From an uncultured Lachnospiraceae bacterium (lineage in GTDB: Bacteria; Bacillota; Clostridia; Lachnospirales; Lachnospiraceae), in NCBI GenBank assembly GCA_947630925.1, contig CANRJM010000006.1, forward strand, positions 1 to 64,000: DNA of 64,000 nucleotides, written 5' to 3'. Positions 1 to 42,606 of the stretch are shown one piece after another (the first letter of the stretch is position 1; each line of letters begins with the position of its first letter). The notes beneath the pieces are model-generated. The model was not told the DNA's origin and ran no database searches. It was given only the letters and a program-made list of their open reading frames with translations. Position numbers and translations under genes: made by a program.

Positions 1-133
1 ATGAGAGTTTTGTCAAAGAGAAAAAATTTACTGTTTTTTTAAATTTACCTCTTGACAAAAGTCACTTCATAACGGAGATTTGGATTTTTGAGGAGAAAGG
101 AAGCAGCTACTACATGACTGACAACATGGGAAC

Positions 134-861
134 GTGGTGCAGCTGACAGATGAGAAGGGAAAAGTCACCAAGACCTATGAGTACGATTCCTTTGGAAATG
201 AGGTAAACCAGGACAGCAAGGATGAGAATCCGTTCCGCTATTGTGGGGAGTACTATGATAAGGAGACGGAGGAAATCTATCTCAGGGCAAGGTACTACGA
301 GCCAGAAGTGGAAAGGTTCCTGACGAGGGATACCTATACCGGGGAAGAGGATGAGCCGGAGAGTCTGCATTTGTATACTTACTGTGAGAATGATGCAGTT
401 AATAGAATTGATCCAAAAGGTCATGATTGTTATGTGTTTTCTCTTAATGAATTTAATTTGGAATCAAAAGGAGTTAAGAAGATAATAAAAAATGTAAAAA
501 GATTAGTACTTCTAGGATGTAATGCTGGACATGATGACTATAGTTTTGAAAACATAGCATATTATTTTTGAGGAAAATTAATGGTCCTTGTATAGCTTCT
601 GATGGAACTGTTTACTCATTCTCAGATGTTCCCTGTACAAATAAATCTACTTTTACATCAAAAGGAGATAAAGAGTGGAGAAGTTGGAGAAATGCTACGG
701 GTAGCAAAAGAAAAAAGAATGAGGGTTGGTTAATGTATCATAAGCGTAAAGATATTAGTTATTTATTAAATAGAAAGGTCACACTAAAAATATTATTATC
801 TTTTAAGCGAGGAAAAGAGATGACATCTTTAATGGATCAACGAGTAATACTCTCATCTTAA
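134..861 (+). pseudogene. RHS repeat-associated core C-terminus plus toxin tip, split by a frameshift
   Basis: RHS core motif YDSFGN...NPFRYCGEYYDKETEEIYLRARYYEPEVERFLTRDTYTGE...NRIDPKGHD; tip LVLLGCNAGHDDYSFENIAYYF continues in another frame as RKINGPCIASDGTVYSF (ORFs 134-571 and 568-861). Confidence 0.8.
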
Positions 862-1318: not shown

Positions 1319-1711
1319 ATGAAGAAGTTAAAAAAAGGATTAATAATATTGTTAGGAGTATCTATTCAAATGAGTATGTATAATTATGTTAATGTTCAAG
1401 CATATAATTTTCAAAATAGAAACGTTAACATTAAAATTATTTCTGCAACACCCCAAAAAATTAAAATAAAAATTTTTAATAAGGGAGATGATATAGCACG
1501 ATATTCTGAAAGTTTTATATTATATAAATATAAAAAAGGTAAATGGAGAAAAGTAAAAAAAATTTCACAAACCCCAAAAACATTATATCTTATTAAAGGA
1601 AAAGGTAGTAAAACAAAAACAATAGTATGTAAAAAAACTTTTGGGAAAGTATTGCCAAAAGGAAAATATAGGTTTAAATGGATTCAAAGTAAAAAATTTA
1701 CAATAAAATAG
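1319..1711 (+). CDS. small secreted Big_14-like (Ig-like) protein, candidate immunity factor
   Basis: Signal peptide; YKYKKGKWRKVKKI...GKVLPKGKYRFKWIQSKKF pattern; paralogous to 36591-37070. Confidence 0.55.
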   Translation: MKKLKKGLIILLGVSIQMSMYNYVNVQAYNFQNRNVNIKIISATPQKIKIKIFNKGDDIARYSESFILYKYKKGKWRKVKKISQTPKTLYLIKGKGSKTKTIVCKKTFGKVLPKGKYRFKWIQSKKFTIK

Positions 1712-1887: not shown

Positions 1888-2751
1888 TTGAAAGTGGAGA
1901 AAATGATGTTAAAAGAAAGAGGATGGAAAAAGGCATTTATGATTGCGATTGTTTGTATTTTTTTTATTACACCAATATGCTTCGGCTGTGGTAGTGATAA
2001 TGGAAAATTAAATAGTGATAAAAAAGAAGATGAAGAATGTATTAATAACTCTTACAAAATAGGATTTGAGTCAAATACGTCTTTTGGCGATAAGGTGTTA
2101 TGTCCCTATATTGAGTTTGAAGGAGGAAACAGCAGTTTGGAAGAAAAAATAAACGATAATTTGCGGCAGGCATCTACGTCATGGATAAACAAAACGTTTA
2201 TTAAAGAAAATAAAAACACCTACTACCCCGAAGTCTTTTGCCATACATCCAGATTCTTATCAGTAGGTCAATCTTATGAAACAGATAATTTTATTACTAA
2301 ATATAATTTTATTACTAATGATTATATTACCATGGACTTGGTGACGGGCAAGCGAATATTTTTGAAAGACATAATTACAGATGAAAAAAAACTGGCACAA
2401 GTTTTGCACGAAGGAAAGATTATGACTACATCAAGAAATGCTTTCACTTTAGATCAGGATGAGGCAGATGCTGCTGTGCGGCAGTGGTTGAGAAAGGTGA
2501 AACTGTCTAAAATTGAAAAGATACTTCAGCAATGTTCTTTAGAACAAAAAAAGTTTCGGCTATTTACAGATAAGAAAAATAAGAAAAAATCTTCATTGCC
2601 ATTTGTGCATGAAAGACCAAATTTTTATTTACAAAATGATGGATTGGTCATAGAGGAAGGAGAGTGGCATAGTCAAATAATTTTAAAATTTAAGGATATA
2701 GGTTATTTGCTTAACCCTCAATATAAAAAATATTTGACTACTGTCGGATGA
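1888..2751 (+). CDS. secreted/lipoprotein-like protein, possible DUF3298-like domain
   Basis: N-terminal hydrophobic segment followed by FGCGSDNG; next to RHS remnants. Confidence 0.5.
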   Translation: MKVEKMMLKERGWKKAFMIAIVCIFFITPICFGCGSDNGKLNSDKKEDEECINNSYKIGFESNTSFGDKVLCPYIEFEGGNSSLEEKINDNLRQASTSWINKTFIKENKNTYYPEVFCHTSRFLSVGQSYETDNFITKYNFITNDYITMDLVTGKRIFLKDIITDEKKLAQVLHEGKIMTTSRNAFTLDQDEADAAVRQWLRKVKLSKIEKILQQCSLEQKKFRLFTDKKNKKKSSLPFVHERPNFYLQNDGLVIEEGEWHSQIILKFKDIGYLLNPQYKKYLTTVG

Positions 2752-2903
2752 AAAAAGAAATATCCTACAAATATAAAGAATAAATATACAGATTTTAAGT
2801 TAAAGGATATCTTATCATCTGGTGGTAAAAATAAAAGCGAAGGTCGTCATAGTGCAGTAACAGAATGTATTATGGTATGGCTCCATTTGGGGTTGGATTT
2901 CAC

Positions 2904-2932
2904 TTGCGGATTGGGCAGAGGCATATTATAAT
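2904..2932 (+). promoter_or_regulatory. putative promoter TTGCGG-N17-TATAAT upstream of Rpn copy 1
   Basis: Same hexamers and spacing occur upstream of Rpn copy 2 (38179-38207). Confidence 0.6.
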
Positions 2933-2957
2933 AAAAGAGGAAGGATGTGACGAAAGA

Positions 2958-3889
2958 ATGGGGAATAAACTTTCCACGGAAAACAAGGATTCTATGGAAA
3001 AACCGTATTTTTCCAAAAAGCCATTTGAGGAACTGCAGATTAGCGACGATTTTATGTTCAGTGTCATTATGAGGAATCCCAAATACTGCAAGCCGTTTTT
3101 GGAGCGGATATTGGGCGTGAAGATTTCCCGCATTGAGTATCCGGAGTATCAGGACACAATTGACCTTACCTATGATGCGAAAAGCGTCAGGCTGGATATT
3201 TTTGTAGAAGGCGATGAAGATTCCGTGTACTGCATTGAGATGCAGACAACCGATAATAAAAACCTCCCGAAAAGGGCAAGATATTATGAGTCCATGATTG
3301 ACCTGAACATTTTGGAAAAGGGAGAGGACTACAGAAAACTGAAGAAGAATTTTGTAATCTTTGTATGTACGTTTGACCTTTTTGGCGAGGGACGGCATAT
3401 TTATAGCCTTGAAAAACGTTGTATTCAGAATCCGGAACTGCCTCTTGGCGATGAAACGACAACGATCATACTGAATACAAAAGGCACGTTGGATGATGTC
3501 TCGCCGGAGATGAAGATGCTGCTGGACTACATTGACGGGAAGGAACCGGGGGACAGTTATACAAAGGAACTGGACGAAGCGGTAGTGTCAACCAGAAAAA
3601 ATGAGAAATGGAAGGGCGCAAAACGTCCGGTGGACGTTTGTTCTGCGCGGACCGGAACGGAGTGGAGAAGAGTTATATGACTTTACAGATGCATTATCAG
3701 GAGAAATATGAGCAGGGGCTTGAGCAGGGGCTTGAACGTGGACGTGAGGAAGAAAGGGAGCAGTCGAAAAGGCAGTTTGCGTTACGGATGTTGGAAGCAG
3801 GGAAATTATCTGTGGAGGAAATTTCGATGTATTCCGGACTGAGTGCAGAACAAGTGCTCGAATTGGAAAAAGAGATGCAACCAGTGTGA
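2958..3889 (+). pseudogene. Rpn family recombination-promoting nuclease/putative transposase (PDDEXK_2), split by a palindromic insertion
   Basis: DDFMFSVIM...RLDIFVEGDEDSVYCIEMQTTDNKNLPKRARYYESMID core; C-terminal YMTLQMHYQEKYEQGLEQGLERG...YSGLSAEQVLELEKE in another frame; paralog 38230-39085 aligns across the insertion. Confidence 0.85.
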
Positions 3890-29455: not shown

Positions 29456-30565
29456 TTATTGTATAATAATATTCGCACAGTCAAAATCATCTTTTAAATC
29501 ATATATTTTTCCGGAGGTTAAACCTACTACTACTGGACGAAGAACGGCTTCCGGGTAGTTTTTTACCACGCGCGCCTCTTCCCCATTGCTTAACTGGACG
29601 GTAGAATCTACCGGATAAAGAATCACGCTCCCCAAAAAACTTTTCATTGCCGTGATGTCTAATTCTTCTGTCATAGACATAATCATTTCTACAGCCGTAC
29701 GCTGCGAGAAAGACTTTTTGTACGGACGTTCTGTTACCAGAGCATCATAGACGTCCGCAACAGATAAAATCTTAGCGAAAGGGGTAATTTTATCAGCGGT
29801 TACGCCCATTGGATATCCTTTTCCATTCATCTTTTCGTGATGCTGTAATACCGCAAAAGAGATCGCATCCGGGAACTCATTTTTCTCCTTTAGGATTTGA
29901 TAACCCAATGTTGAATGTTGTTTCATAATGGCAAATTCTTCATCATTCAATTTGGCCGGTTTATTTAATATTTCAGGCGGAATCTTTGATTTTCCCATAT
30001 CATGGAGGAGACCGGCGATTCCAATATTATAAATATCCTCCTGTTTTAATTTCTGCTTTTGTGCGATAATCATAGACATGGTTGCCACGTCAACGCTGTG
30101 TTTAAAGGTATATTCATCACTTGCTTTCAGCGCAGTGATATCGACAGCAATCGCGTCGTTATCATGAATGGCTTTCATCAGATCTTTCGTAATACTGTTC
30201 GTCGCATTGGAAAAATCTTCCGCCTCAGAATGATTATAGAGATATTGGATTCCCTCGGACACTCTTTTTTTCACACTTTCTGACAATGTTACTTTGGCCG
30301 GATCAGCCGTCCGCAGTTTAGCAATATTATTACGGGCCATAGGAGACATTGGCTTTTCTTCTTCAACCGGGACCGGTTCGTCTTCCTCGCCTTCACATAT
30401 GTATACTCCGCCAATTCTTAATTTAAGCAAAGACTGGATTAGATATTCATCTAAAATGGTTCCCCGGGCAATCAGGACTCGATCCATTCTGTCTTTGATT
30501 GACTGGTCTATTTTCATTCCGGTTTCCAGGGAACGTGTTCTTACAAAATAACGTTTTATCACATG
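29456..30565 (-). CDS. HD-GYP domain phosphodiesterase
   Basis: AGLLHDMGKSKIPPEILNKPAKLNDEEF...HHEKMNGKGYPMGV; start region approximate. Confidence 0.92.
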   Translation of the reverse strand, partial: HVIKRYFVRTRSLETGMKIDQSIKDRMDRVLIARGTILDEYLIQSLLKLRIGGVYICEGEEDEPVPVEEEKPMSPMARNNIAKLRTADPAKVTLSESVKKRVSEGIQYLYNHSEAEDFSNATNSITKDLMKAIHDNDAIAVDITALKASDEYTFKHSVDVATMSMIIAQKQKLKQEDIYNIGIAGLLHDMGKSKIPPEILNKPAKLNDEEFAIMKQHSTLGYQILKEKNEFPDAISFAVLQHHEKMNGKGYPMGVTADKITPFAKILSVADVYDALVTERPYKKSFSQRTAVEMIMSMTEELDITAMKSFLGSVILYPVDSTVQLSNGEEARVVKNYPEAVLRPVVVGLTSGKIYDLKDDFDCANIIIQ

Positions 30566-30772: not shown

Positions 30773-30891
30773 TTGAATTTAACATAGCTGTTTGTGAAGA
30801 TGAGGAATATTTCAGAGAGTACCTGAAGAAAAAAATGGAAGAATACCTGATGGGGAAAGGAGTTCCTATTCATATTCGCCTATTGCTATAA
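30773..30891 (+). pseudogene. N-terminal remnant of a receiver-domain (LytTR/AgrA-type) response regulator
   Basis: FNIAVCEDEEYFREYLKKKMEEYLMGKGVPIHIRLLL then stop. Confidence 0.5.
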
Positions 30892-30907
30892 CGGGAGGTG
30901 TGAAAGT

Positions 30908-31618
30908 TTGAAAAAAAGTTATGTAATTGTTATTTTGTTATTTGCTGTTTGTTTTTTTGTTACGGCTTGTTTGTCGAATGAGAATATTCATAAAAAAAGT
31001 GAAACCATTGCTGCTACACAAAGACCGGAAGAAACGGAAACCGTTACCGCTACACAAAGGCCAGAAGAAACGGATGAATTAGGTGCGTGGTTAAAACAAT
31101 ATAAAGCCTTCCTGCAGGATAGAGTCCCATCAGAAGAAAAAGAGGATAGGGAATTCTATTATTTGACTTTGACTGATTATTGTAACACTGTTGTTCCGGG
31201 AGAAACGGAAGATGGAATCCAGTATGCTTTGTTTGATATGACTGGTGACGGGATGCCGGAATTACATGTACTGACAGATGATTGCTATAGGATTCATACC
31301 ATAAAGAACCATCACCTTGTAGTATGGTATGGGGGAGACCGATATAACAGGCCGCTCAATAATAGGATGATACTTTGGAAAGGAGACTCGGAATCGGCCG
31401 GTGAGAGTTATACAGTTCTTGATAGTGAAGGGAAGGAAGTTGTTTTTATCTCGTTCACACGATCATTCCCAACTAGTAGAAACGACTATGGATACTTTAG
31501 CACTGGAGATGATGATATTAAGGTGTCAAAAAAACAGTGGAAAAAATTGAGAAAACCATTTTTAGCAATTGGTTCGGATAAGATTATTTGGAAAAATATA
31601 GGAGATTTGGATTTTTGA
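30908..31618 (+). CDS. lipoprotein, candidate RHS immunity protein
   Basis: TTG start after GGGAGGTG; lipobox FVTACLS; ATQRPEETE twice; next to RHS fragment. Confidence 0.6.
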   Translation: MKKSYVIVILLFAVCFFVTACLSNENIHKKSETIAATQRPEETETVTATQRPEETDELGAWLKQYKAFLQDRVPSEEKEDREFYYLTLTDYCNTVVPGETEDGIQYALFDMTGDGMPELHVLTDDCYRIHTIKNHHLVVWYGGDRYNRPLNNRMILWKGDSESAGESYTVLDSEGKEVVFISFTRSFPTSRNDYGYFSTGDDDIKVSKKQWKKLRKPFLAIGSDKIIWKNIGDLDF

Positions 31619-31633
31619 GGAGAAAGTAAACTG

Positions 31634-31954
31634 TACTACGTCACCGACCCGCATGGGAGCGTGGTGCAGTTGACGGATGGGAAAGGCAAGGTCATCAAGA
31701 CCTATGAATATGATTCTTTCGGCAATGAGATAACCCCGGACAGTAAGGACGAAAACCCGTTCCGCTACTGCGGGGAGTATTATGATAAGGAGACGGAGAG
31801 TCTGCATTTGTATACATACTGTTACAATAACCCAGTTGTTTATTTCGATAATGGTGGAAATTGTCTGTTAGTTGATTGGGCTAAATCAAAAAAAGTTAAC
31901 TATCAACGTTTGGAAAAAGGAGAAAAAATTATTATAAATGTTGTAAAATTATAA
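31634..31954 (+). pseudogene. RHS C-terminal fragment with 90-bp internal deletion
   Basis: YYVTDPHGSVVQLTDGKGKVIKTYEYDSFGNE...YYDKETESLHLYTYCYNNPVVYFDNGG lacks EIYLRARYY...TGEEDEP seen at 134-571. Confidence 0.8.
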
Positions 31955-32015
31955 AATAAAATAGGGATTGTAGTTCGTGGAGATGGGGTCCTATATTTAG
32001 AAGAGGTGAGGATCA

Positions 32016-32684
32016 TTGAAAAAGAATATTGTGTTTTTTTGTGTGTTGAGTATATTTGTTTTTGGATTAATATACCATTTGATCAGTAATGCGACAAAGG
32101 ATAATGACAGTATTAAAGAAGAGGAAAATATTGGTATTGAGATTATAGATAAAAATATGGATATTAAAGGTCATGATATTTTAGTGCCACAGATATCAGG
32201 AGATAACGACACTGTCCAATACTTAAATAAAAAAATAATTGAAAAAATCGAATGCCATATAGACAGGAAATCTAGTTTATACAATTATCATTATATTGTT
32301 AAATATAATGATGGGAGATATGTAAGTATCATAATTGAAATGGAACAATATAACAAAACATTACCACATCCAGCAAAGAGAGCTGATGCAATAAATATAG
32401 ATTATAAGAAGAAAAAATTTTTGGACAATAATGATCTTATGCCAAATGTAAAACAATTTTGTGAAGATGTAAAGGGTGGCAGATATAAATTGTTATCTGA
32501 GAATGAAATTCCAAATAATGTTGCATATCTTTCTGGCTATATTGAAAATAAAAAAAAGACAGAAATAAAAGAAATGTATGATAGTACTGAAATAGAGATA
32601 TTTATATCAAATCAATCTTTAGGTTTTATTCTTACAGAGCCTTATGCTATGGGGGGATATGCTATATTCGAGAAGAGGGGGTAA
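32016..32684 (+). CDS. membrane-anchored/secreted immunity-like protein
   Basis: TTG start; N-terminal hydrophobic anchor; between RHS fragments. Confidence 0.5.
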   Translation: MKKNIVFFCVLSIFVFGLIYHLISNATKDNDSIKEEENIGIEIIDKNMDIKGHDILVPQISGDNDTVQYLNKKIIEKIECHIDRKSSLYNYHYIVKYNDGRYVSIIIEMEQYNKTLPHPAKRADAINIDYKKKKFLDNNDLMPNVKQFCEDVKGGRYKLLSENEIPNNVAYLSGYIENKKKTEIKEMYDSTEIEIFISNQSLGFILTEPYAMGGYAIFEKRG

Positions 32685-32860
32685 AACGTTGGAGTAAAGA
32701 CATCGCCAGTTGATCAAAAATAAATAAAAAGAGTAATGGTGCTAAACGGCATAAATACCATTTATGGATGCCAGAAAGCCGTACAGGATGGCAGACTGGA
32801 CATTGGTCCCAGCGCACATGCCGTAGATAGCCATGACTTTACGGAGGAACTTAACGCTCT

Positions 32861-33387
32861 GTGCCGGAAAGACAAGGAACAGGAGAAAGAGATTTGGCGT
32901 ATCTGGGAGGAAAACGAATTCTGTATGCGTACTGTGGGAATGATGGGGTGAATGCTTGGGATCTAAGTGGGCATAAAATTAAGTCAAGTAGTTCTGGCAA
33001 GAAATGGACAAAAAATAATGAATTGTCTCCTTCATATGCTAAACAAAAAGGTTATGCAAAAGTAAAAAAGGGGAAAATTACTAAAATAAAGTTTCATTAT
33101 AATGGTAAAGATCGTAATATTAATTTTGGATATGGTCATGTTATTGCATTAGGAGAAAAGGATATACATAAAGATGACAAGAAAATTTGGAAAAAATATT
33201 TGAAAGGGAAAGATGCACACTGTTGGAATATTAATAAAAAAATATATGGGTGTCAGTAAAGGAATGTAATCGGCGTTTTAATAAAGATATCAAGTTTATT
33301 GTGAATAAAATTAATACTGATTTACCTAATTTAAAGGTAAATCAAAACCAGGCAGATGCGTTAATTGATTTCAGGTATAATATTTAA
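32861..33387 (+). pseudogene. RHS C-terminal fragment with GH24 lysozyme-like toxin tip, frameshifted
   Basis: ILYAYCGNDGVNAWDLSGHKI then INFGYGHVIAL; other frame VKECNRRFNKDIKFIVNKINTDLPNLKVNQNQADALIDFRYNI. Confidence 0.6.
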
Positions 33388-33416
33388 AAAAGGGCCCAAA
33401 AAAGGGGGATGATACT

Positions 33417-34202
33417 TTGAAAATCAAAATTATTTGTTTTTTAATTTGTTTTTTGTTTTCCATTACGGCCTGTGCTGTACACGACAATCAAAAAGAGGAT
33501 GTCCCCAAAAATAGAAAGGAAATAGGCAGTACATATCATGCAGGTAATACGACAAACGGTTCTATTATTTATGATAGTTTTGTTCAGTGCCAAGACTATA
33601 GCTGGTTAAAACAAATAGGGTTCTTGCCCTGTCAGGCAGTGGAGAAGAAGATCGGGGAAATTCAAGAAAATATGACAATTAAAAAAATGGAGGATATATC
33701 TTTCATAAATTGCAATATAACAGGGGGAAATAGAGACGTTATAATGAGAGCATCTGTTTTTACAGATATATTTGATTTTGATATCATGCTCTTGTTTGTT
33801 GATTATAATGAGGAGGCTGTATTTGATTTTATAGCACAGAAAAGAACATTAGATTATCAACTGGTTGATTTGGATGGCAATGGGATTTCGGAAATAGTTA
33901 TAGAGTGTTTGGGTCTCAATAAGTCGAGAAAGCATATGGGAATCTATTGTTTTGAAAGAGAAATTGTTCCGATTTTAGAAAAAAATGTTGACTCATTTCA
34001 ATATGACCTTTCCTATCAGATTGTAGATGGACAGGTGAAGGTTAGAAAAACAAAATATTACTATAATAAGAACAACAAAAAGAAAAAGGCAAGAGTTGTA
34101 GAATATACATATATGTATAATGGCAATAACATGAAACAGACGGACAAAAAAGTGGTATGGAAATCAAAACGAAAGGATTTTAAAGCATGGACGCTTGGGT
34201 AA
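33417..34202 (+). CDS. lipoprotein, candidate immunity protein
   Basis: TTG start; lipobox SITACAV; between RHS fragments. Confidence 0.55.
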   Translation: MKIKIICFLICFLFSITACAVHDNQKEDVPKNRKEIGSTYHAGNTTNGSIIYDSFVQCQDYSWLKQIGFLPCQAVEKKIGEIQENMTIKKMEDISFINCNITGGNRDVIMRASVFTDIFDFDIMLLFVDYNEEAVFDFIAQKRTLDYQLVDLDGNGISEIVIECLGLNKSRKHMGIYCFEREIVPILEKNVDSFQYDLSYQIVDGQVKVRKTKYYYNKNNKKKKARVVEYTYMYNGNNMKQTDKKVVWKSKRKDFKAWTLG

Positions 34203-34284
34203 ACTGGTTGATTAAGGATGTCGCAAGGAACTATAGCAATGAAAATGTCGGAAACAGGACAACATTTTTGGTACAGGCAGTGGA

Positions 34285-34440
34285 TATGTGACCGATCCAC
34301 ATGGGAACGTGGTGCAGATGACGGATAAAAATGGCAAGGTCATCAGGACCTATGAATATGATTTCTTCGGGAATGTTTGTTAAAACGAAGAAAAAAGAGG
34401 CTAAAATATTTAATACTGAAAAATATCCTAAAAATTAAAA
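34285..34440 (+). repeat. 156-bp direct repeat copy A: truncated RHS core fused to a toxin-tail-like sequence
   Basis: YVTDPHGNVVQMTDKNGKVIRTYEYDFFGN followed by tail also present at 35546-35701. Confidence 0.85.
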
Positions 34441-34556
34441 ATGGAGAGGAATGGAAATGAAAAAGAACTATCTAAATTAAAAGAATAAAACAATACGGCA
34501 ATACATGGTTTTATACTTATTGAGATTAAAAAATACATTAGAGGGGGGAATATAAT

Positions 34557-35377
34557 TTGAAACGTATGTTATTATTTTTAATATTAACATCTTTGTGTTT
34601 GACATCATGTAAAATAGAAGAAAAACAAAAATATATGGGTGAGGGAAGCAAATTGATTTTTGATGATTCAACAATAATTGAAGATGTAGAATATGGACTT
34701 AAAATGCCCTCTATAAAGAAAATTTTAGAACAATTACGATATAATTTATGTTTACAAAAATACATATTTAATATAGATTTATATAGTTCTTTTTATAATA
34801 AATATCATAATATTTCAGTTTATTATGAGGAGAGGGATTATGCTCAAGATGGTAAGGCATATCAAATTGTATATGTAGTAGAGGGCAGAAAGAGGTGTGA
34901 GTATTATACGGTAGTTTACACTTGTAAGGGATTTTTGTCTTATGTTGAGAATGTGGGTTCTGGTTTAAATGAGGTTAAATCAGTGAATGACTGTCTTGAT
35001 GGAAAATTTGTTTATTTTGGGAAAGGAGAGTTATTAATTACAAAAGAAGAAACGGAAGATTTTGTACCAAATTTTCAAGATGCATATAATGATAAAAGTA
35101 TAATGAAGGAAATAAAGAATGTAGTTAAAAGGGAAATGAATAAAAAGCATGGAATTAAACATTGTGAAATATATATGATGTACATGCTTCCAGCAGATTG
35201 TGAAACAAAATATATGTTAAGGACAATAAAAAAAATTATTATGAAGGAGATTTAAAATTATTGTATTCGGGTAAAAAATTAAATGATTTTGCGGGAGTGT
35301 TGTATGAAAAAATTAAAGGTCCAACTAAAATAGTAAAGGATGATGAAATAGCAATAGAAAAAAGTTTGAAATTATAA
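34557..35377 (+). pseudogene. lipoprotein/immunity-like gene with A-run frameshift near 35209
   Basis: ORF 34557-35255, TTG start, lipobox LTSCKIE; continuation VKDNKKNYYEGDLKLLYSGKKLNDFAGVLYEKIKGPTKIVKDDEIAIEKSLKL in another frame. Confidence 0.6.
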
Positions 35378-35545
35378 AAGAATAAGTCTGCCTTTTCAAT
35401 ACGGGTGGGGGAAATGATACCAAACTGCTCCGCACTGACACATTGAATACCGACACGGAGGAAGATTCCGTTGTCATCTAAAAAAGCGACAAGAACGGGT
35501 ACCAGTTGGCTATTGTCAACCGTTATGAAATCGGAGAAACAGTAC

Positions 35546-35701
35546 TATGTGACCGATCCACATGGGAACGTGGTGCAGATGACGGATGAGAAAGGCAAGG
35601 TCGCCAAAACCTATGAATATGATTCCTTCGGGAATGTTTGTTAAAACGAAGAAAAAAGAGGCTAAAATATTTAATACTGAAAAATATCCTAAAAATTAAA
35701 A
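35546..35701 (+). repeat. 156-bp direct repeat copy B
   Basis: See 34285-34440; roughly the last 75 bp identical. Confidence 0.85.
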
Positions 35702-35713
35702 AGAGGTGGTAAA

Positions 35714-36304
35714 ATGAAAAAGAAATTAATATTATTGATTTTTGCAGTATTACTTACATCATGTAACTACGATAATGCCAATGATCAGGCTTTGGACAAT
35801 GAAATTAATACATCTCAGAATTTACAGCAAGAATTTACTGTAAAGGCAAATGAAAAAATTGGAAATATTTTTGTAGAAGGGGAAAAAATCCAAAAATCCG
35901 GAGTGGAAATAGTGGATAATTATTTTCCTGGAGCAATGACGAAAGGCGAGGATGGATCTTGTTACTATTTTAGAACAGTAAAAGAGGGAGAAAGAGAGAC
36001 ACTTACTTTTTATAAAAATAACAATCAAAAAGTGTGTGAGACAGAGATGCCATCAAAGATACGAAAAAAGGCTGGTATAAATAGTTTTGTACAATATCAG
36101 GGGTATTTTTTTGTTGAAATATATGGAGAATTACATGGAGAAGCTAAACACTATTTGTCGGCTATCAATATAAAAGATGGTACTTGGGAAAAAATAATAG
36201 AAGGCCCAGGACCAGCACATAAAATATTTATATATGACAATAAATTTATATGTGCATATGGTGAAGACATTAAGGTTTATGATTTGACGGGAGGATACTG
36301 TTAA
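35714..36304 (+). CDS. lipoprotein, candidate immunity protein
   Basis: ATG start, lipobox LLTSCNY; directly follows RHS repeat B. Confidence 0.55.
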   Translation: MKKKLILLIFAVLLTSCNYDNANDQALDNEINTSQNLQQEFTVKANEKIGNIFVEGEKIQKSGVEIVDNYFPGAMTKGEDGSCYYFRTVKEGERETLTFYKNNNQKVCETEMPSKIRKKAGINSFVQYQGYFFVEIYGELHGEAKHYLSAINIKDGTWEKIIEGPGPAHKIFIYDNKFICAYGEDIKVYDLTGGYC

Positions 36305-36309
36305 AGGAA

Positions 36310-36368
36310 TTCATTTATCGGATAAAAAGTATAAAAAGATAAGGGATAAACTCAAATCCTTAAACTGA
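36310..36368 (+). repeat. 59-bp repeat upstream of IS200/IS605 tnpA remnant
   Basis: TTCATTTATCGGATAAAAAGTATAAAAAGATAAGGGATAAACTCAAATC matches 37098-37156. Confidence 0.8.
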
Positions 36369-36381
36369 GGAGGTATCCAAA

Positions 36382-36591
36382 ATGGATAATCAAAGTATAC
36401 AACATATACGATGGAATTGCCTGTATCATATTGTATTTATTTCAAGATGCCGAAGGGAAATTATGCACGGAGAGACAAAAAGGGATCTGGTGGAAATAAT
36501 CAATAAACTTTGTGAGATGAAACAAGTAGAGCCTATCCTGATTTTGCAACAAAAATATGCTGTATTAATGCAACTTATGGTGTTTCGCTAA
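36382..36591 (+). mobile_element. IS200/IS605 TnpA N-terminal remnant
   Basis: MDNQSIQHIRWNCLYHIVFISRCRREIMHGETKRDLVEIINKLCEMKQVE. Confidence 0.7.
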
Positions 36592-37070
36592 TGTCTAAAA
36601 TTTTTCTAAAAGTGAAAGGAGATGAGTTAGTGATTAGGAGGAGAATTTGGATATATATATTTTTGATTGTATTGTTTAATATCATATATTCTGACACAAA
36701 ATGTATTGCTGCATCAAAGGATTCATATGTTACATATGGAAATAAAAGTTATACTAAAAAGTATATATCAGTAAAGGTGATATCTGCAAACAGTAAAAAG
36801 ATTAAAATAAAACTAAAAAATCGAGGAAATAAAACATATTTGTATTCAGAAGTATTCAAAATACGTAAATATAAAAAAGGAAAGTGGAGAAAAATAAATT
36901 ATAGGAAGGATGCAAAATTTGCTAAATGTTTATATAAATTAGAACCAAATGATAGTAAAATTATAAAAATAGCATGGAAAAAATATTTTGATACAGAAGA
37001 TTTTAAGCGAGGAAAATACAAAATTATCTGGATGTCAAATTGTAGCTTTAGGATAAAAAATGACAATTAG
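36591..37070 (+). CDS. small secreted Big_14-like protein, paralog of 1319-1711
   Basis: KIRKYKKGKWRKINYR...LEPNDSKIIKIAWKKYFDTEDFKRGKYKIIW; start uncertain. Confidence 0.55.
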   Translation: MSKIFLKVKGDELVIRRRIWIYIFLIVLFNIIYSDTKCIAASKDSYVTYGNKSYTKKYISVKVISANSKKIKIKLKNRGNKTYLYSEVFKIRKYKKGKWRKINYRKDAKFAKCLYKLEPNDSKIIKIAWKKYFDTEDFKRGKYKIIWMSNCSFRIKNDN

Positions 37071-37097
37071 CTTGCTACAATTAATCATTACACAGAC

Positions 37098-37156
37098 TTC
37101 ATTTATTGGATAAAAAGTATAAAAAGATAAGGGATAAACTCAAATCTTTACACTGA
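37098..37156 (+). repeat. second copy of the IS200-associated 59-bp repeat
   Basis: See 36310-36368. Confidence 0.8.
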
Positions 37157-37227
37157 ATAAGTCAGATTCATCGAGAGGATATGATAATCATACGGGATTT
37201 TTCTGTGGTATCTTTTTTATCCCTTAT

Positions 37228-37992
37228 ATGAAAAGGAGAGGTATGTGCATGGGAATGAAAGAATGTGAAAGAATTGACAAAAAAATACGTATATTTTGTC
37301 TGGCATTGCTGGCGTTATTTTTACTCTTTACGCATACGGCATGTGGCAAGGAGGGGAGGAATGCTGGTTCGGACGAGAAGGATGTGGAGAGTATGGCACC
37401 AGAAAATTTGTTAGGTGGAGAAATGACGTTTCAGAGTGTTTTGAATGGGGAAGCGCTGAAAGTGGAGAAAGCGGAAAATCCATGTATGAATATTTTGGAG
37501 GGGATACTGCGGGGAGATAAAAATTACCGAAAAGAACATAAAGAGATGGAGAAGAGCATATTGGAATATGTAAAGGATTCGACGTCTGGTTTTCTGAAAA
37601 ATGAAAAAGTATACCTGTCACTCCATCCAGTCTTTTCTTGGGATGCCATGGAGAATACGGTTATTTTTTCTAACCCCAGTGCGCTTTTTTTTACCAAGAA
37701 TATGGATGCGGCTGGAGTGTGTAGTTTTTACAGTGATGATGAGAAGCATTTTGAAATCATTACGATTGGATCTCTGGATGAGCCGGTGCGGCGTGTTCTT
37801 CAGGAAAATCCTGCGGAGCGTCTTCTTTTTATAGGAAACGGTAATAAGGAAATTGTCTTAAAAGAAGATAATACTGTGCTGGGCGGAGATTTGGATATTC
37901 AGGTAAAAGGGGAATATTTTCAAAGGGTAGACATCAGGGAACTTTCTTTCTCTTATGAGACAATTTCTGCGGATACAAAATTGTTGAAATAA
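37228..37992 (+). CDS. lipoprotein of unknown function
   Basis: Lipobox THTACGK after hydrophobic segment. Confidence 0.6.
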   Translation: MKRRGMCMGMKECERIDKKIRIFCLALLALFLLFTHTACGKEGRNAGSDEKDVESMAPENLLGGEMTFQSVLNGEALKVEKAENPCMNILEGILRGDKNYRKEHKEMEKSILEYVKDSTSGFLKNEKVYLSLHPVFSWDAMENTVIFSNPSALFFTKNMDAAGVCSFYSDDEKHFEIITIGSLDEPVRRVLQENPAERLLFIGNGNKEIVLKEDNTVLGGDLDIQVKGEYFQRVDIRELSFSYETISADTKLLK

Positions 37993-38008
37993 ATTACCTT
38001 CAAAAGCT

Positions 38009-38080
38009 GAGGTAAACCTGGACAGTAAGGATGAGAACCCGTTCCGCTACTGCGGGGAGTATTATGATAAGGAGACGGAG
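38009..38080 (+). pseudogene. RHS core fragment
   Basis: EVNLDSKDENPFRYCGEYYDKETE. Confidence 0.7.
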
Positions 38081-38178
38081 AAAGTCAGGCGGGTAATAAA
38101 GAAAAATTTATAGATAGAAAATTGCTTAACTATGCCCCTGTTTACAGTTCGTTTACTTCATCATGCGGAAGTTGATGC

Positions 38179-38207
38179 TTGCGGTTTGAATGACGGCATA
38201 TTATAAT
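38179..38207 (+). promoter_or_regulatory. putative promoter TTGCGG-N17-TATAAT upstream of Rpn copy 2
   Basis: Matches copy-1 promoter hexamers and spacing. Confidence 0.6.
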
Positions 38208-38229
38208 GAAAGAAAAAGGAAGTGAATAA

Positions 38230-39085
38230 ATGGGAAATCGACAATTTCAATCGGCAATTATCAAGGCAGAGGCAAAGGCGTATGAAGAATTACAGCTCAA
38301 GGGACGATAAAGCCTCTCTTCGAGAGGCTTTTATGTTTAGCGTCATCATGAGAGATTCCAGGTATTGCAAGCCGTTCTTGGAGCGTGTGTTGGGAGTGCG
38401 GATTGCGCGGATGGAATACCCGAAATCGCAGGAAACAATCGACCTTGCTGCGGATGCCAAAAGTGTCCGGCTGGATATTTATGTTGAGGATGGAAATAAT
38501 ACGGTCTATAATATTGAAATGCAGACCACGGAGAATAGAAATCTTCCGAAGAGGACGCGATATTATGGCGGGATGATTGATCTAAATCTCTTGGAAAAGG
38601 GAGAAAACTATAAGGAGTTGAAACGCTGCTTTGTCATATTTGTATGTACCTTTGACCTGTTTGGTAAAGGGCGGCATATCTACAGTTTTGAGAACCGGTG
38701 CATTCAGGAGCCTGACCTGTCTCTTGGCGATGATGTGACAAAGATTATATTGAATACGAAGGGGACAATGGATGACATCTCGCCGGAGATGAAAAAACTA
38801 CTGGATTATATTGACGGGAAAGAACCGGAGGACGATTACACCAGGGAACTGGATGAGGCGGTACAGTCCGCAAGAAAAAATGAGAAATGGCGGTTGGACT
38901 ATATGACTTTGCAGATGCATTATCAGGAGAAGTTCGAGCAGGGAATTGAGCAGGGAAATAAACAGGCGGCGAGACGGATGCTGAGGGATGGAGATTTGCC
39001 ATTGGATAAGGTTGCACTGTATTCCGGTCTGACAGTGGAAGAGGTGCTTGAACTGGAAAAAGAAGAAGCGTCAAAACCGGTGTGA
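38230..39085 (+). pseudogene. Rpn/PDDEXK_2 nuclease copy 2 with N-terminal frameshift and hairpin insertion; catalytic ORF retained from about 38282
   Basis: MGNRQFQSAIIKAEAKAYEELQLKGR* then other-frame FMFSVIMRDSRYCKPFLERVLG...RLDIYVEDGNNTVYNIEMQ. Confidence 0.8.
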
Positions 39086-40275: not shown

Positions 40276-42606
40276 GTGAAAACGGAATTGAAAAAGAACA
40301 ATGTGAATCAGATTATAAAAGGAATGACGATATTTGAAGCCGGAAATCCGGTTGAAGAGATTGGGTTGGTAATTAAGGGGAGAGTGCGCGTACAGTCAGA
40401 CGGCGCAACTTTGGTTTTAGGCTCCGGTAATTTTCTGGGACTTTGTGACTTGCCGGGTGGGGAGTACAACGCGACATATACGGCAGAAACCAATTTAGCC
40501 CTGTTTGCTTTTCCCGTTTCCGATTTGCAGTCAGAAATCCATAATCTGATTTCTACAAATAAAGATTACGCACCGTTATTGGTATCAACATTAAGCAGAT
40601 ATATCCGTGAACTTTCCGGAATCTTTACGGCTATGGAAGAGATAGCCGGCTCCTCCTGTCAGTGCATGAAAGACTCCTATCGGATTTATTTTGATTTGGG
40701 AGAGCGTTTTGGCGTCAATACGACTTCGCTTCGGGAGATGGAGGAGTTAGAAGAATATGTAAGACAGGACTTTCCGTGGCGCAAGAAAATAGCCTATTAC
40801 TGCGCCTGCGCAGGCTTGTCTTCGGAAGTACAGAAGACATACTTTGGTTCTGAGGAAGTCATTGCAGTTTATCATATTACGGAAGAGGTTTCTTTGATCA
40901 ACGCGCTGTTAAAAGAATGCAGCCGGGTGGCGGCATATTTGAAAGGACTTGCGGAATTGTTGATTATTAACGACAGAAGCCTGTATGCGCTTGTATTAAA
41001 GCAGGCGGTTGTACTGCAGCATATGAGCGACAATATTTCCGAGGCTACTTCCCTGCTTGATGATGTGATTGACTGCATCAACTCGTTAGAAAATCTTCTT
41101 GCGGATAAAGCGGGGATTCAGTTGGAAGTCGATCATGAGTTTATGGAGGAAGCATATTTTGAATTACTGAATCGAAAAGGTTCCGATGCGGATGACAGCA
41201 GTTTGGCGTTGGTAGAAGAGCAACATGTCGATACAGATGAACTGATAGGCGCATTGGATCAGATTCTTGCATTTGGCGGATTGGAGCAGGAGGAAGAAGC
41301 CAGGTTCAGAGAAGACGTCGATGCTTTTTTGGTTATGCCGGATAAATATGCAACAGATGATACTGCCAGAAATCTTCGCAGAAGTTTGCAAAAAGTTTAT
41401 TATACCCTATACCGGAATGTATTTTTAAAAGATTTTCATTCAAAACAAGAGACGCCGATAGTGATTGATTTGTTTTTGCGATATGGTTTTTTGAGTGAGA
41501 AGCTGGTTTCTGCAGAGATTCAGGAGGAACTGCTGACAATTGATACTTTTAATTCCAATACGGGTCCTTGTTCGGTATATGATATGAAGGAATGGCTGAC
41601 GCTGATTTTAAAAGGAGAGAAAGAGCCTTCGAAAAGCGAGTTTGATTTGGATTATGACGAAAATCTGCGCGAATTGCGCAAGACAGGACATATTACTGCA
41701 GCGCAGCAGCAGGATATGTCAGGCGACGTCAATGCAAAGTTAGATTATGAATTGCAAAATATGTTTAAAACGAACCATAGGATTGTATTTGGGCAGATTT
41801 CTGCATTTGTTCCGTTTTTGTTTACAGAGGGCTGTACAAGTTCCATTAATCGCGGCTATCTGTCAAAAGACAAAGTCAATGCCTCAGTGCGCCGTCTGTT
41901 ATATATTGACTATTCGGCATTTTATCGGGAAGGTCTTTATGCAAAAAATGACAGCAGCTTTGCAAAAGAATACGTGCAGCAGGAGGTATTTCCGGATATT
42001 ATCATGATGCCGGCTTATGGAAGTAAAAGTGTCATGTGGCAGGAATTGAGCGGCAGACGAAGAAACTCAAAGGGAAGATTTCTGTTTCCGGTTTTCATGG
42101 AGGGCGATTTAGACAGTGAAATGATTAAATTGTTTGGACGTTTTCGTTGGGAGCTCTGCCGGACGATTCAAGGGGCTTCGTGGAATAATATACAGAGCAG
42201 GTCGCTGACAAGTGAATATTTTGATTTTGTACAATTCTATAAGAAAAATCGGGAACTGTCAGAAGATAAAAAGGAAAAACTCAAGCTTCAGATTCAGAAG
42301 AGCCGCAATAATACAAGAGAGGTATTTGTGATTGATTATGAGAACTGGATCAAGCATGAGGCGCAGGGGGGAATCTGCCTGAGCAAACCTGTCAGGGAAA
42401 TTTTAGCCACATATTGCCCATTTCCGAAAAAATTGCGGGAAAAGGTAAGCGATCAGCCGATATTCCGCGATGCAATGGCGCGGTTTCAGAGAGAACGCGG
42501 CAAAAAGATCAAAGAATACGATTTGAAATTCAAAGTATGGGAACGGGACGGGCTTGATATTCCGGAGGAGATTATAGAAACGAAACGTTTCTATACAGAG
42601 TATTAA
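40276..42606 (+). CDS. cyclic nucleotide-binding-like domain protein, 776 aa
   Basis: N-terminal cNMP-like IIKGMTIFEAGNPVEEIGLVIKGRVRVQ...GNFLGLCDL. Confidence 0.75.
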   Translation: MKTELKKNNVNQIIKGMTIFEAGNPVEEIGLVIKGRVRVQSDGATLVLGSGNFLGLCDLPGGEYNATYTAETNLALFAFPVSDLQSEIHNLISTNKDYAPLLVSTLSRYIRELSGIFTAMEEIAGSSCQCMKDSYRIYFDLGERFGVNTTSLREMEELEEYVRQDFPWRKKIAYYCACAGLSSEVQKTYFGSEEVIAVYHITEEVSLINALLKECSRVAAYLKGLAELLIINDRSLYALVLKQAVVLQHMSDNISEATSLLDDVIDCINSLENLLADKAGIQLEVDHEFMEEAYFELLNRKGSDADDSSLALVEEQHVDTDELIGALDQILAFGGLEQEEEARFREDVDAFLVMPDKYATDDTARNLRRSLQKVYYTLYRNVFLKDFHSKQETPIVIDLFLRYGFLSEKLVSAEIQEELLTIDTFNSNTGPCSVYDMKEWLTLILKGEKEPSKSEFDLDYDENLRELRKTGHITAAQQQDMSGDVNAKLDYELQNMFKTNHRIVFGQISAFVPFLFTEGCTSSINRGYLSKDKVNASVRRLLYIDYSAFYREGLYAKNDSSFAKEYVQQEVFPDIIMMPAYGSKSVMWQELSGRRRNSKGRFLFPVFMEGDLDSEMIKLFGRFRWELCRTIQGASWNNIQSRSLTSEYFDFVQFYKKNRELSEDKKEKLKLQIQKSRNNTREVFVIDYENWIKHEAQGGICLSKPVREILATYCPFPKKLREKVSDQPIFRDAMARFQRERGKKIKEYDLKFKVWERDGLDIPEEIIETKRFYTEY

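Follow-up and report, generated by a model that had tools for sequence, protein, structure and literature searches.

In the DNA analysed here, the 30.9-38.1 kb region likely represents what is left, after decay, of an array that formed through repeated C-terminal displacement at a Lachnospiraceae locus for a secreted, WapA-like RHS toxin; genes that survive in it may still be protective. The analysis covered 64,000 nt of an uncultured Lachnospiraceae bacterium (GCA_947630925.1, contig CANRJM010000006.1, positions 1-64,000, forward strand), all of which is referred to as the window, with coordinates counted from its first letter and all features given below on the + strand. Core fragments were located by tblastn with a full-length relative and with an HMM of the relatives' cores. 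Five RHS core fragments, with significance far above chance, are interleaved in this main array with secreted or lipoprotein genes; a first-pass annotation had reported at least five, and these searches recovered all five. The fragments repeat core-homologous sequence without the N-terminus of a full-length RHS. At the sequence level, we observe homologies to other loci, lesions, an adjacency of tips and partner genes in relatives, and homologues that persist in RHS-negative genomes.

The same core does occur in full-length RHS genes of related genomes, where the first-pass annotation had proposed to look for such genes. These encode secreted RHS proteins of ~2040 aa with RHS_repeat and DUF6531 domains and a variable tip, followed by a lipoprotein or membrane-anchored gene, and the relatives hold orphan core cassettes besides the full-length RHS and its downstream secreted gene. 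A secreted-type gene lies behind 17 of the 19 complete tips in the relatives' clade, and a lipobox gene behind 12 of the 19; among background ORFs, lipobox genes number 15 of 184 (P=7e-8). The tips match Phage_lysozyme, Phage_lysozyme2, Zn_dep_PLPC, Glyco_hydro_75 and DUF4474. Those that can be recognised comprise lysozymes, zinc phospholipases C, a hydrolase of the GH75 type and possibly a metalloprotease, and every one of these activities would suit a site of action outside the cytoplasm. Like tips are accompanied by like partner families, as for the Zn-PLC tips of L031, L033 and L042 and the DUF4474 tips of L027 and L032. An earlier suggestion of extracytoplasmic toxin action is supported by the lysozyme and phospholipase C tips of the relatives and by their partners, which are mostly lipoproteins. 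The proposed likeness to a Gram-negative CDI-type locus was not borne out, the kin being WapA-like secreted RHS proteins of Lachnospiraceae, and no CdiA/CdiB two-partner secretion genes were recognised among the annotated genes around the RHS loci.

In the main array, an immunity-type gene again stands directly behind each tip, in the order seen in the relatives, and the RHS sequence itself is heavily damaged. The remnant at 31628..31954 (core 31628-31888, core HMM/tblastn E 8e-26) carries a 90-nt internal deletion and a truncated tip, and within it 31799-31888 and the full-length RHS of L036-L039 share 94% identity. At 32840..33384, a core end (32920-32976, matching the DNA of relatives at 83-89% identity) runs into a decayed and truncated phage-lysozyme tip with a frameshift near 33250; positions 33250-33384 match PF00959 (E 4.6e-6), identifying a lysozyme remnant whose N-terminal half gave no clear alignment. 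The remnants at 34214..34441, 95% identical to 35546-35702, contain core positions 1-31 (34285-34374, E 2e-9) joined by a deletion to the last tip residues, with an additional RHS trace at 34214-34276. Those at 35422..35702 retain core sequence in two pieces (35422-35635) and show an internal deletion, followed by a tip C-terminus and then the lipo5 RBS, while the fragment at 38008..38086 (core positions 32-57, E 1e-9) picks up where 35635 ends. An IS200-type transposase fragment (36382..36591, PF01797, E 1e-6) lies within the array, which is ended by a PDDEXK_2 (Rpn-type) gene at 38222..39085 (PF12784, E 1e-13). Tip sequence after the orphan cores is limited to the one lysozyme remnant and to tip ends before lipo5 and in a second array described below, the others having been deleted. 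Most of what survives in the pieces is core, with little of the tips left, and the region stands as orphan RHS core and immunity remains rather than as an array of usable tip-immunity cassettes, since all main-array tips are destroyed and two of the lipoproteins are pseudogenes. Upstream, 30775-30856 reads like the start of a putative AgrA-type regulator. A search for an empty site by flank synteny (HD-GYP gene at 29456, cNMP gene at 40276; 28 congeners) was uninformative because the flanking genes are not adjacent elsewhere.

Among the partner genes, the intact lipoprotein lipo1 (30908..31618) is, from its sequence relationships, probably the immunity to a lysozyme-type tip. Its family profile matches the lipoprotein directly after the full-length lysozyme-tipped RHS of L041 (hhalign prob 96, E 2.5e-9), as compared with a prob of only 7-31 for other lipoproteins in comparable profile comparisons. 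From lipo1 through the following core, 942 bp align with L029 at 90% DNA identity, and lipo1 has a dN/dS of 0.45 against L029, indicating mild constraint only; its AlphaFold model (pLDDT 62) found no PDB match. Lipo3 (33417..34202), an intact lipoprotein directly 3′ of the lysozyme remnant and a candidate lysozyme-tip immunity, is 46% identical to the C-terminal half of the L126:681-2243 product (dN/dS 0.14). A common lysozyme-inhibitor family, considered from a D-x-D/N-G-x-x-E motif in lipo1, lipo3 and the L036 and L041 partners, is not claimed because the profile comparison ties lipo1 to L041 only, and not to lipo3 or L036. Lipo2 (32016..32684) is predicted to be a membrane-anchored secreted candidate immunity protein, for which no homologue was found and a sequence search against the PDB gave nothing useful. 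A secreted Big_14 protein, the second family member in the window and likewise a candidate immunity, is encoded at 36591..37070 (PF20251, E 1.7e-13).

Two partner genes are themselves broken. Lipo4 (34557..35374) is frameshifted and truncated; in two frames, it matches the N-terminal half of the intact L126 protein (520 aa) at 73-77% identity. Lipo5 (35714..36362) is a truncated lipoprotein gene followed by its own 3′ end; against the intact L125 protein (426 aa), its identity is 89% for residues 1-194 and 62% for residues 383-424. The 3′ remnant of a second lipo5-family gene lies at 37085..37199 (102 nt at 86% identity to the end of the L125 gene); a 62-nt repeat at 36307 and 37095, considered as an IS200 end, was rejected as such because a lipo5-family gene ends in this sequence. 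The first-pass list of lipoprotein and secreted ORFs therefore holds for their alternation with the cores, with the corrections that those at 32016 and 36591, although bearing a membrane anchor or signal, have no lipobox and those at 34557 and 35714 are truncated. The immunity label that it gave lipo6 (37228..37992), a lipoprotein gene ending 16 bp before a core fragment, is putative; we do not claim lipo6 as proven immunity because its homologues in G022, G010, G014 and G011 lie in ordinary contexts outside RHS loci. These unrelated neighbourhoods, together with lipo1-family members that have no adjoining RHS (L108, L109), would suit ordinary surface proteins with no tie to the RHS relics around them, a reading we consider very improbable given the tip-lipoprotein adjacency in relatives, the matched tip and partner families, and the homology of lipo1 to the cognate partner at L041.

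A second, smaller array, overlooked in the first-pass annotation, occupies positions 1-2751. The tail of a lipo1-like gene, an RHS core (122-424; core HMM E 8e-50, TIGR03696 1.5e-21) and a broken tip are found at 74..571, with 86% identity of 74-403 to L029:1066-1395; the tip meets a stop at 571 and continues in another frame at 568-861. At 1319..1711 lies a gene for a secreted Big_14 (Ig-like) protein and candidate immunity (PF20251, E 2e-10), whose product is 50% identical to that of L028:17112-17528, directly upstream of an RHS core there. An RHS trace (1840-1884) just precedes a membrane-anchored or lipoprotein gene at 1888..2751, also a candidate immunity, for which Foldseek returned RsiV-lysozyme 5jen (E 4.7e-6, prob 1.0), 3cyg (1.3e-6) and 4e72 (3.4e-3), consistent with a DUF3298/RsiV fold that Pfam detected just marginally on relatives; a sequence search of this family against the PDB found nothing useful. 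A paralogue of this gene adjoins a small RHS fragment on contig C26, likewise overlooked. The second array is ended by another PDDEXK_2 (Rpn-type) gene at 2865..3680 (PF12784, E 6e-12), so that two of the four copies in the genome close the two window arrays.

The window contains no full-length RHS gene, as had been stated before, and neither does the draft assembly (93.5% complete), in which only small RHS fragments were found. Relatives have a companion gene in front of RHS; its counterpart here (76% identity) is cut at the end of the 3-kb contig C50, and contig C6 begins inside an RHS cassette, so that an intact toxin gene may have escaped the draft. An active locus split by assembly, in which a full-length RHS gene persists with the arrays as its normal downstream orphan reservoir for tip switching, is a possibility of somewhat less than even weight, tempered by the near-completeness of an assembly with so little RHS, by orphan tips too damaged for swapping back in, and by the position of the main array ~31 kb from the contig start.

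A further rival reading is that the array as a whole, its lipoprotein genes with it, is neutral wreckage being lost and protects against nothing. The shredded cores, the IS fragments, the frameshifted and truncated lipo4, and lipo5, half gone and without significant constraint (P=0.10), would all be expected of plain debris, and the breakage of lipo4 and lipo5 means that selection for keeping immunity is not uniform. We nevertheless regard plain debris as unlikely. Every tip is broken, but lipo1, lipo2, lipo3, lipo6 and both Big_14 genes are open in AT-rich DNA; dN is below dS for lipo1, lipo3 and lipo4 against their homologues, a signal that mostly reflects the homologues' own history; and intact homologues are kept in RHS-negative genomes. 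Homologous partner genes are present without cores in G022, where a 3′ piece of the L032 immunity gene precedes an intact lipo5 homologue, and in G135, where at least five homologues of RHS immunities, fused in some cases, stand in a row and no RHS was found in the genome; therefore, the window survivors may act as orphan immunity. Lipoproteins without RHS neighbours, which the first-pass annotation had weighed as contrary evidence, thus occur in part (G022, G135 and G193), but in G022 and G135 further homologues of RHS immunities are among the neighbours, and orphan immunity accounts for this better than unrelated lipoproteins would.

We infer displacement as the route to these arrays, as well as expression, toxin neutralisation and a present-day benefit of the survivors. 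With a variable tip such as a lysozyme, a phospholipase C or a GH75-type hydrolase, the RHS protein would target the envelopes of cells nearby, and the lipoprotein or membrane-anchored product of the gene directly behind the RHS gene would protect the producing cell at a site outside the cytoplasm. A new core-tip-immunity module recombining into the core would displace the previous module (core end, tip and immunity gene) downstream, where several displaced modules in the window would have lost their toxins through deletion, frameshift and IS debris. The open immunity genes (lipo1, lipo3 and probably lipo2 and the Big_14 pair) could then still protect against the incoming RHS toxins of neighbours, with lipo4 and lipo5 as immunity genes broken in turn.

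Acquired interbacterial defence (AID) clusters of Bacteroidales hold orphan immunity genes that are kept without the toxin, against T6SS effectors. Such clusters, mentioned in PMC10470768, resemble the present case in having orphan immunity genes within toxin-less genomes, and differ in targeting T6SS effectors in Bacteroidales. AID clusters lie on mobile elements with a recombinase; such an origin is no more than a possibility for the window arrays, both of which end in Rpn-type PDDEXK_2 genes. Orphan Rhs C-terminal displacement arrays of E. coli, Salmonella and bee gut bacteria (PMC8125069, PMC3967940) also have a shared core, core fragments lacking the N-terminus, immunity genes between these, and a location downstream of rhs; here, however, the host is Gram-positive, the RHS has a signal peptide and is not a T6SS effector, the partners are mostly lipoproteins, the tips are nearly all lost, and the assembly is without an intact rhs. 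Polyimmunity loci and proteins (Zhang et al. 2012, PMC3482391) share tandem unrelated immunity genes and fused two-domain proteins with the G135 array and the 520-aa L126 protein, although the known ones are nearly all cytoplasmic and those here are anchored or are lipoproteins at the surface; the window array is broken up by RHS fragments, while the run on G135:C21 is uninterrupted by toxin cassettes. TelC-TipC of Streptococcus (PMC6193138, PMC9484751) similarly combines a toxin acting outside the Gram-positive cytoplasm with outward-facing, membrane-anchored immunity and several paralogous immunity genes, but with an LXG/T7SS toxin and one immunity family in place of RHS and many unrelated families. 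The RsiV/DUF3298 lysozyme-binding anti-sigma factor (PDB 5jen) has its fold, as predicted, in common with the 1888-2751 protein, whose gene lies in RHS-immunity arrays with no sigma-factor context seen and whose sequence similarity is very low.

The immunity proteins of polymorphic toxins are described as nearly all cytoplasmic, one lipobox family (Imm65) having been singled out in a 2012 survey (PMC3482391). In one RHS lineage of gut Firmicutes, putatively envelope-attacking tips are coupled with many unrelated lipoprotein partners, homologues of which remain in genomes without RHS. We tentatively suggest that gut Lachnospiraceae might possess a surface-facing form of orphan immunity, in which arrays of unrelated, sometimes fused, lipoprotein or membrane-anchored inhibitors derived from RHS loci are kept after toxin loss and guard wall and membrane against the envelope-degrading RHS toxins of neighbours. 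If the partners do protect, this would give a testable view of Lachnospiraceae competition and defence at the cell surface and functions for many lipoproteins of unknown role, and the RsiV-like case would tie lysozyme binding to toxin immunity. If true, it would represent an extracytoplasmic Gram-positive counterpart of the acquired interbacterial defence of Bacteroidales.

The draft genome that holds the window comprises 2.42 Mb in 55 contigs and is 93.5% complete, with its Lachnospiraceae affiliation indicated by the nearest relatives; the window is the opening 64 kb of its contig C6. A core HMM made from the cores of 46 relatives, together with BLAST, confirmed that the array of RHS fragments and lipoproteins marked at 30773-38207 in the first-pass annotation is real and correctly placed; its kind had been well guessed. 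From 30.9 to 38.1 kb, secreted genes alternate with RHS core remnants, all on the plus strand, with HMM matches at 31634-31801 and 31793-31858, 34285-34374, 35543-35635 and 38009-38086, and with additional core pieces (32920-32976 and 35422-35532) and a trace (34214-34276) from BLAST. The region is AT-rich, with a GC content of 0.30-0.33 compared to about 0.42 in the surroundings. Just upstream of the first lipoprotein gene, lipo1 (30908-31618), lies the start of a putative AgrA-type regulator, apparently fused to a tip-end remnant (30775-30890). The earlier reading as a tip-immunity array stands as to its RHS/immunity kind, but the toxins are broken, and a more fitting name for the region is a decayed RHS displacement array, one whose probable immunity genes have outlasted the toxins.

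Lesions are found throughout. The core at 31.6 kb has lost 90 nt internally and its tip is shortened, while a lysozyme remnant (PF00959, E 4.6e-6) preceding lipo3 (33417-34202) carries a frameshift near 33250, with the last third and much of the first part missing. Two duplicate cores, at 34285 and 35543 (95% identity over 157 nt), both end with profile position 31, after which the sequence skips to the tip end, and the 38.0-kb piece picks up at position 32. The halt at position 31 (35635) and the restart at 32 (38008) are ~2.4 kb apart, as though a single block had gone in at precisely that point. Among the immunity candidates, lipo4 (34557-35374) is frameshifted and shortened, lipo5 (35714-36362) lacks its middle, and the end of a second lipo5-family gene remains at 37085-37199. 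The junctions, where an immunity stop and the core fragment behind it lie about 0-16 bp apart, fit the C-terminal displacement model (PMC8125069).

Scanning with the core gave 48 loci, many in Lachnospiraceae, and the full-length RHS genes sought there were found at several, in the order ~1046-aa Kelch/CBM96 secreted protein, ~225-aa anchored protein, ~2040-aa secreted RHS, lipoprotein or anchored protein, and orphan core-tip-lipoprotein cassettes. Tips matched Phage_lysozyme (L021, L046), Phage_lysozyme2 (L036-L039, L041), Zn_dep_PLPC (L031, L033, L042), Glyco_hydro_75 (L023; weakly L024), DUF4474 (L027, L032) and, weakly, Peptidase_M43 (L035). A secreted-type gene stands directly behind 17 of the 19 complete tips and a lipobox gene behind 12, compared to 15 of 184 background ORFs (P = 7e-8), and tips that resemble each other go with partners that do so too. 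Loci L037 and L039, on two contigs of assembly A29_21, carry what looks like the same 20-kb RHS region twice, through either real duplication or an artefact of assembly.

Several window lipoproteins are tied to these systems. Locus L029 matches lipo1 and the next core at 90% DNA identity over 942 bp, L037/L039 carry a 53%-identical copy, placed after an orphan core, and the lipo1 family profile aligns with the L041 partner (hhalign probability 96, E 2.5e-9; other lipoproteins 7-31), which begins at the stop codon of a lysozyme-tipped full-length RHS gene. The two halves of a 520-aa lipoprotein of the congener G022 are the counterparts of lipo4 and lipo3; lipo5 comes after the final residues of a tip otherwise deleted, with a good RBS in front; and the Big_14 proteins (1319-1711 and 36591-37070) are kin of an L028 protein that abuts an RHS core. 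No homologue of lipo2 (32016-32684) was found, and the tie of lipo6 (37228-37992) to RHS is doubtful. The dN/dS values were 0.45 (P = 0.006, against L029) and 0.27 (against L037) for lipo1, 0.33 for lipo4, 0.14 for lipo3, with synonymous sites near saturation, and 0.56 for lipo5, which was not significant; since these pairwise values mix the histories of both genes, they indicate past constraint, not present function.

As first noted, the window has no full-length RHS gene, and only small fragments of other RHS sequence were found across the 55 contigs. The Kelch/CBM96 companion gene is present (76% identity) on the 3-kb contig C50, behind a membrane gene, and the contig end truncates it at residue ~610. 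Given this truncation, and that C6 begins inside an RHS cassette, a full-length RHS gene may lie in an assembly gap.

That cassette belongs to a second array at 1-2.75 kb, of the main array's kind. The tail of a lipo1-like gene comes first; the complete core (122-424) and broken tip after it lead to genes for a Big_14 protein and an RsiV-like protein (1888-2751), followed by a PDDEXK_2 gene. A paralogue of the RsiV-like gene adjoins an RHS trace on contig C26 (25153-25275). The predicted model of the RsiV-like product (four sequences, pLDDT 68) matches RsiV with lysozyme (5jen, E 4.7e-6), as well as other DUF3298 structures. Since lysozyme is bound by RsiV, immunity to a lysozyme tip is plausible as a lead; the adjoining tip is not recognisable as lysozyme. 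The genome has only four PDDEXK_2 (Rpn-type) genes (2865-3680, 38222-39085, C29:20011 and C31:15728). The first two close the RHS arrays, at 114-136 bp, and have in common a short segment with TATAAT upstream of them; another lies behind a serine recombinase. These genes may have a part in moving cassettes.

Putative immunity homologues also occur apart from RHS. In G022 (87% complete) the core matched nothing and RHS was confined to a single small fragment; nonetheless this genome has an intact lipo5 and the lipo4-lipo3 protein. Upstream of this lipo5 is a 3′ fragment of the partner of the DUF4474-tipped L032 RHS (76% over 308 bp). In G135 (99% complete), RHS was absent from the matches of two separate searches, and a reverse-strand run on contig C21 (L110) carries at least five RHS-partner homologues up to the contig end, including fusions, one of an L020-type partner with an RsiV-like domain. 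This run illustrates surface polyimmunity better than the window does. L027-type homologues are present in G010 and G011, both without RHS cores, and G193, which has RHS elsewhere, carries the lipo1 family in tandem. In the literature covered, no publication was found describing such an array for Lachnospiraceae, and the polyimmunity proteins known from publications are for the most part cytoplasmic (PMC3482391). What is unusual here is that the system is Gram-positive, extracytoplasmic and lipoprotein-based, and that runs of such genes occur in RHS-negative relatives.
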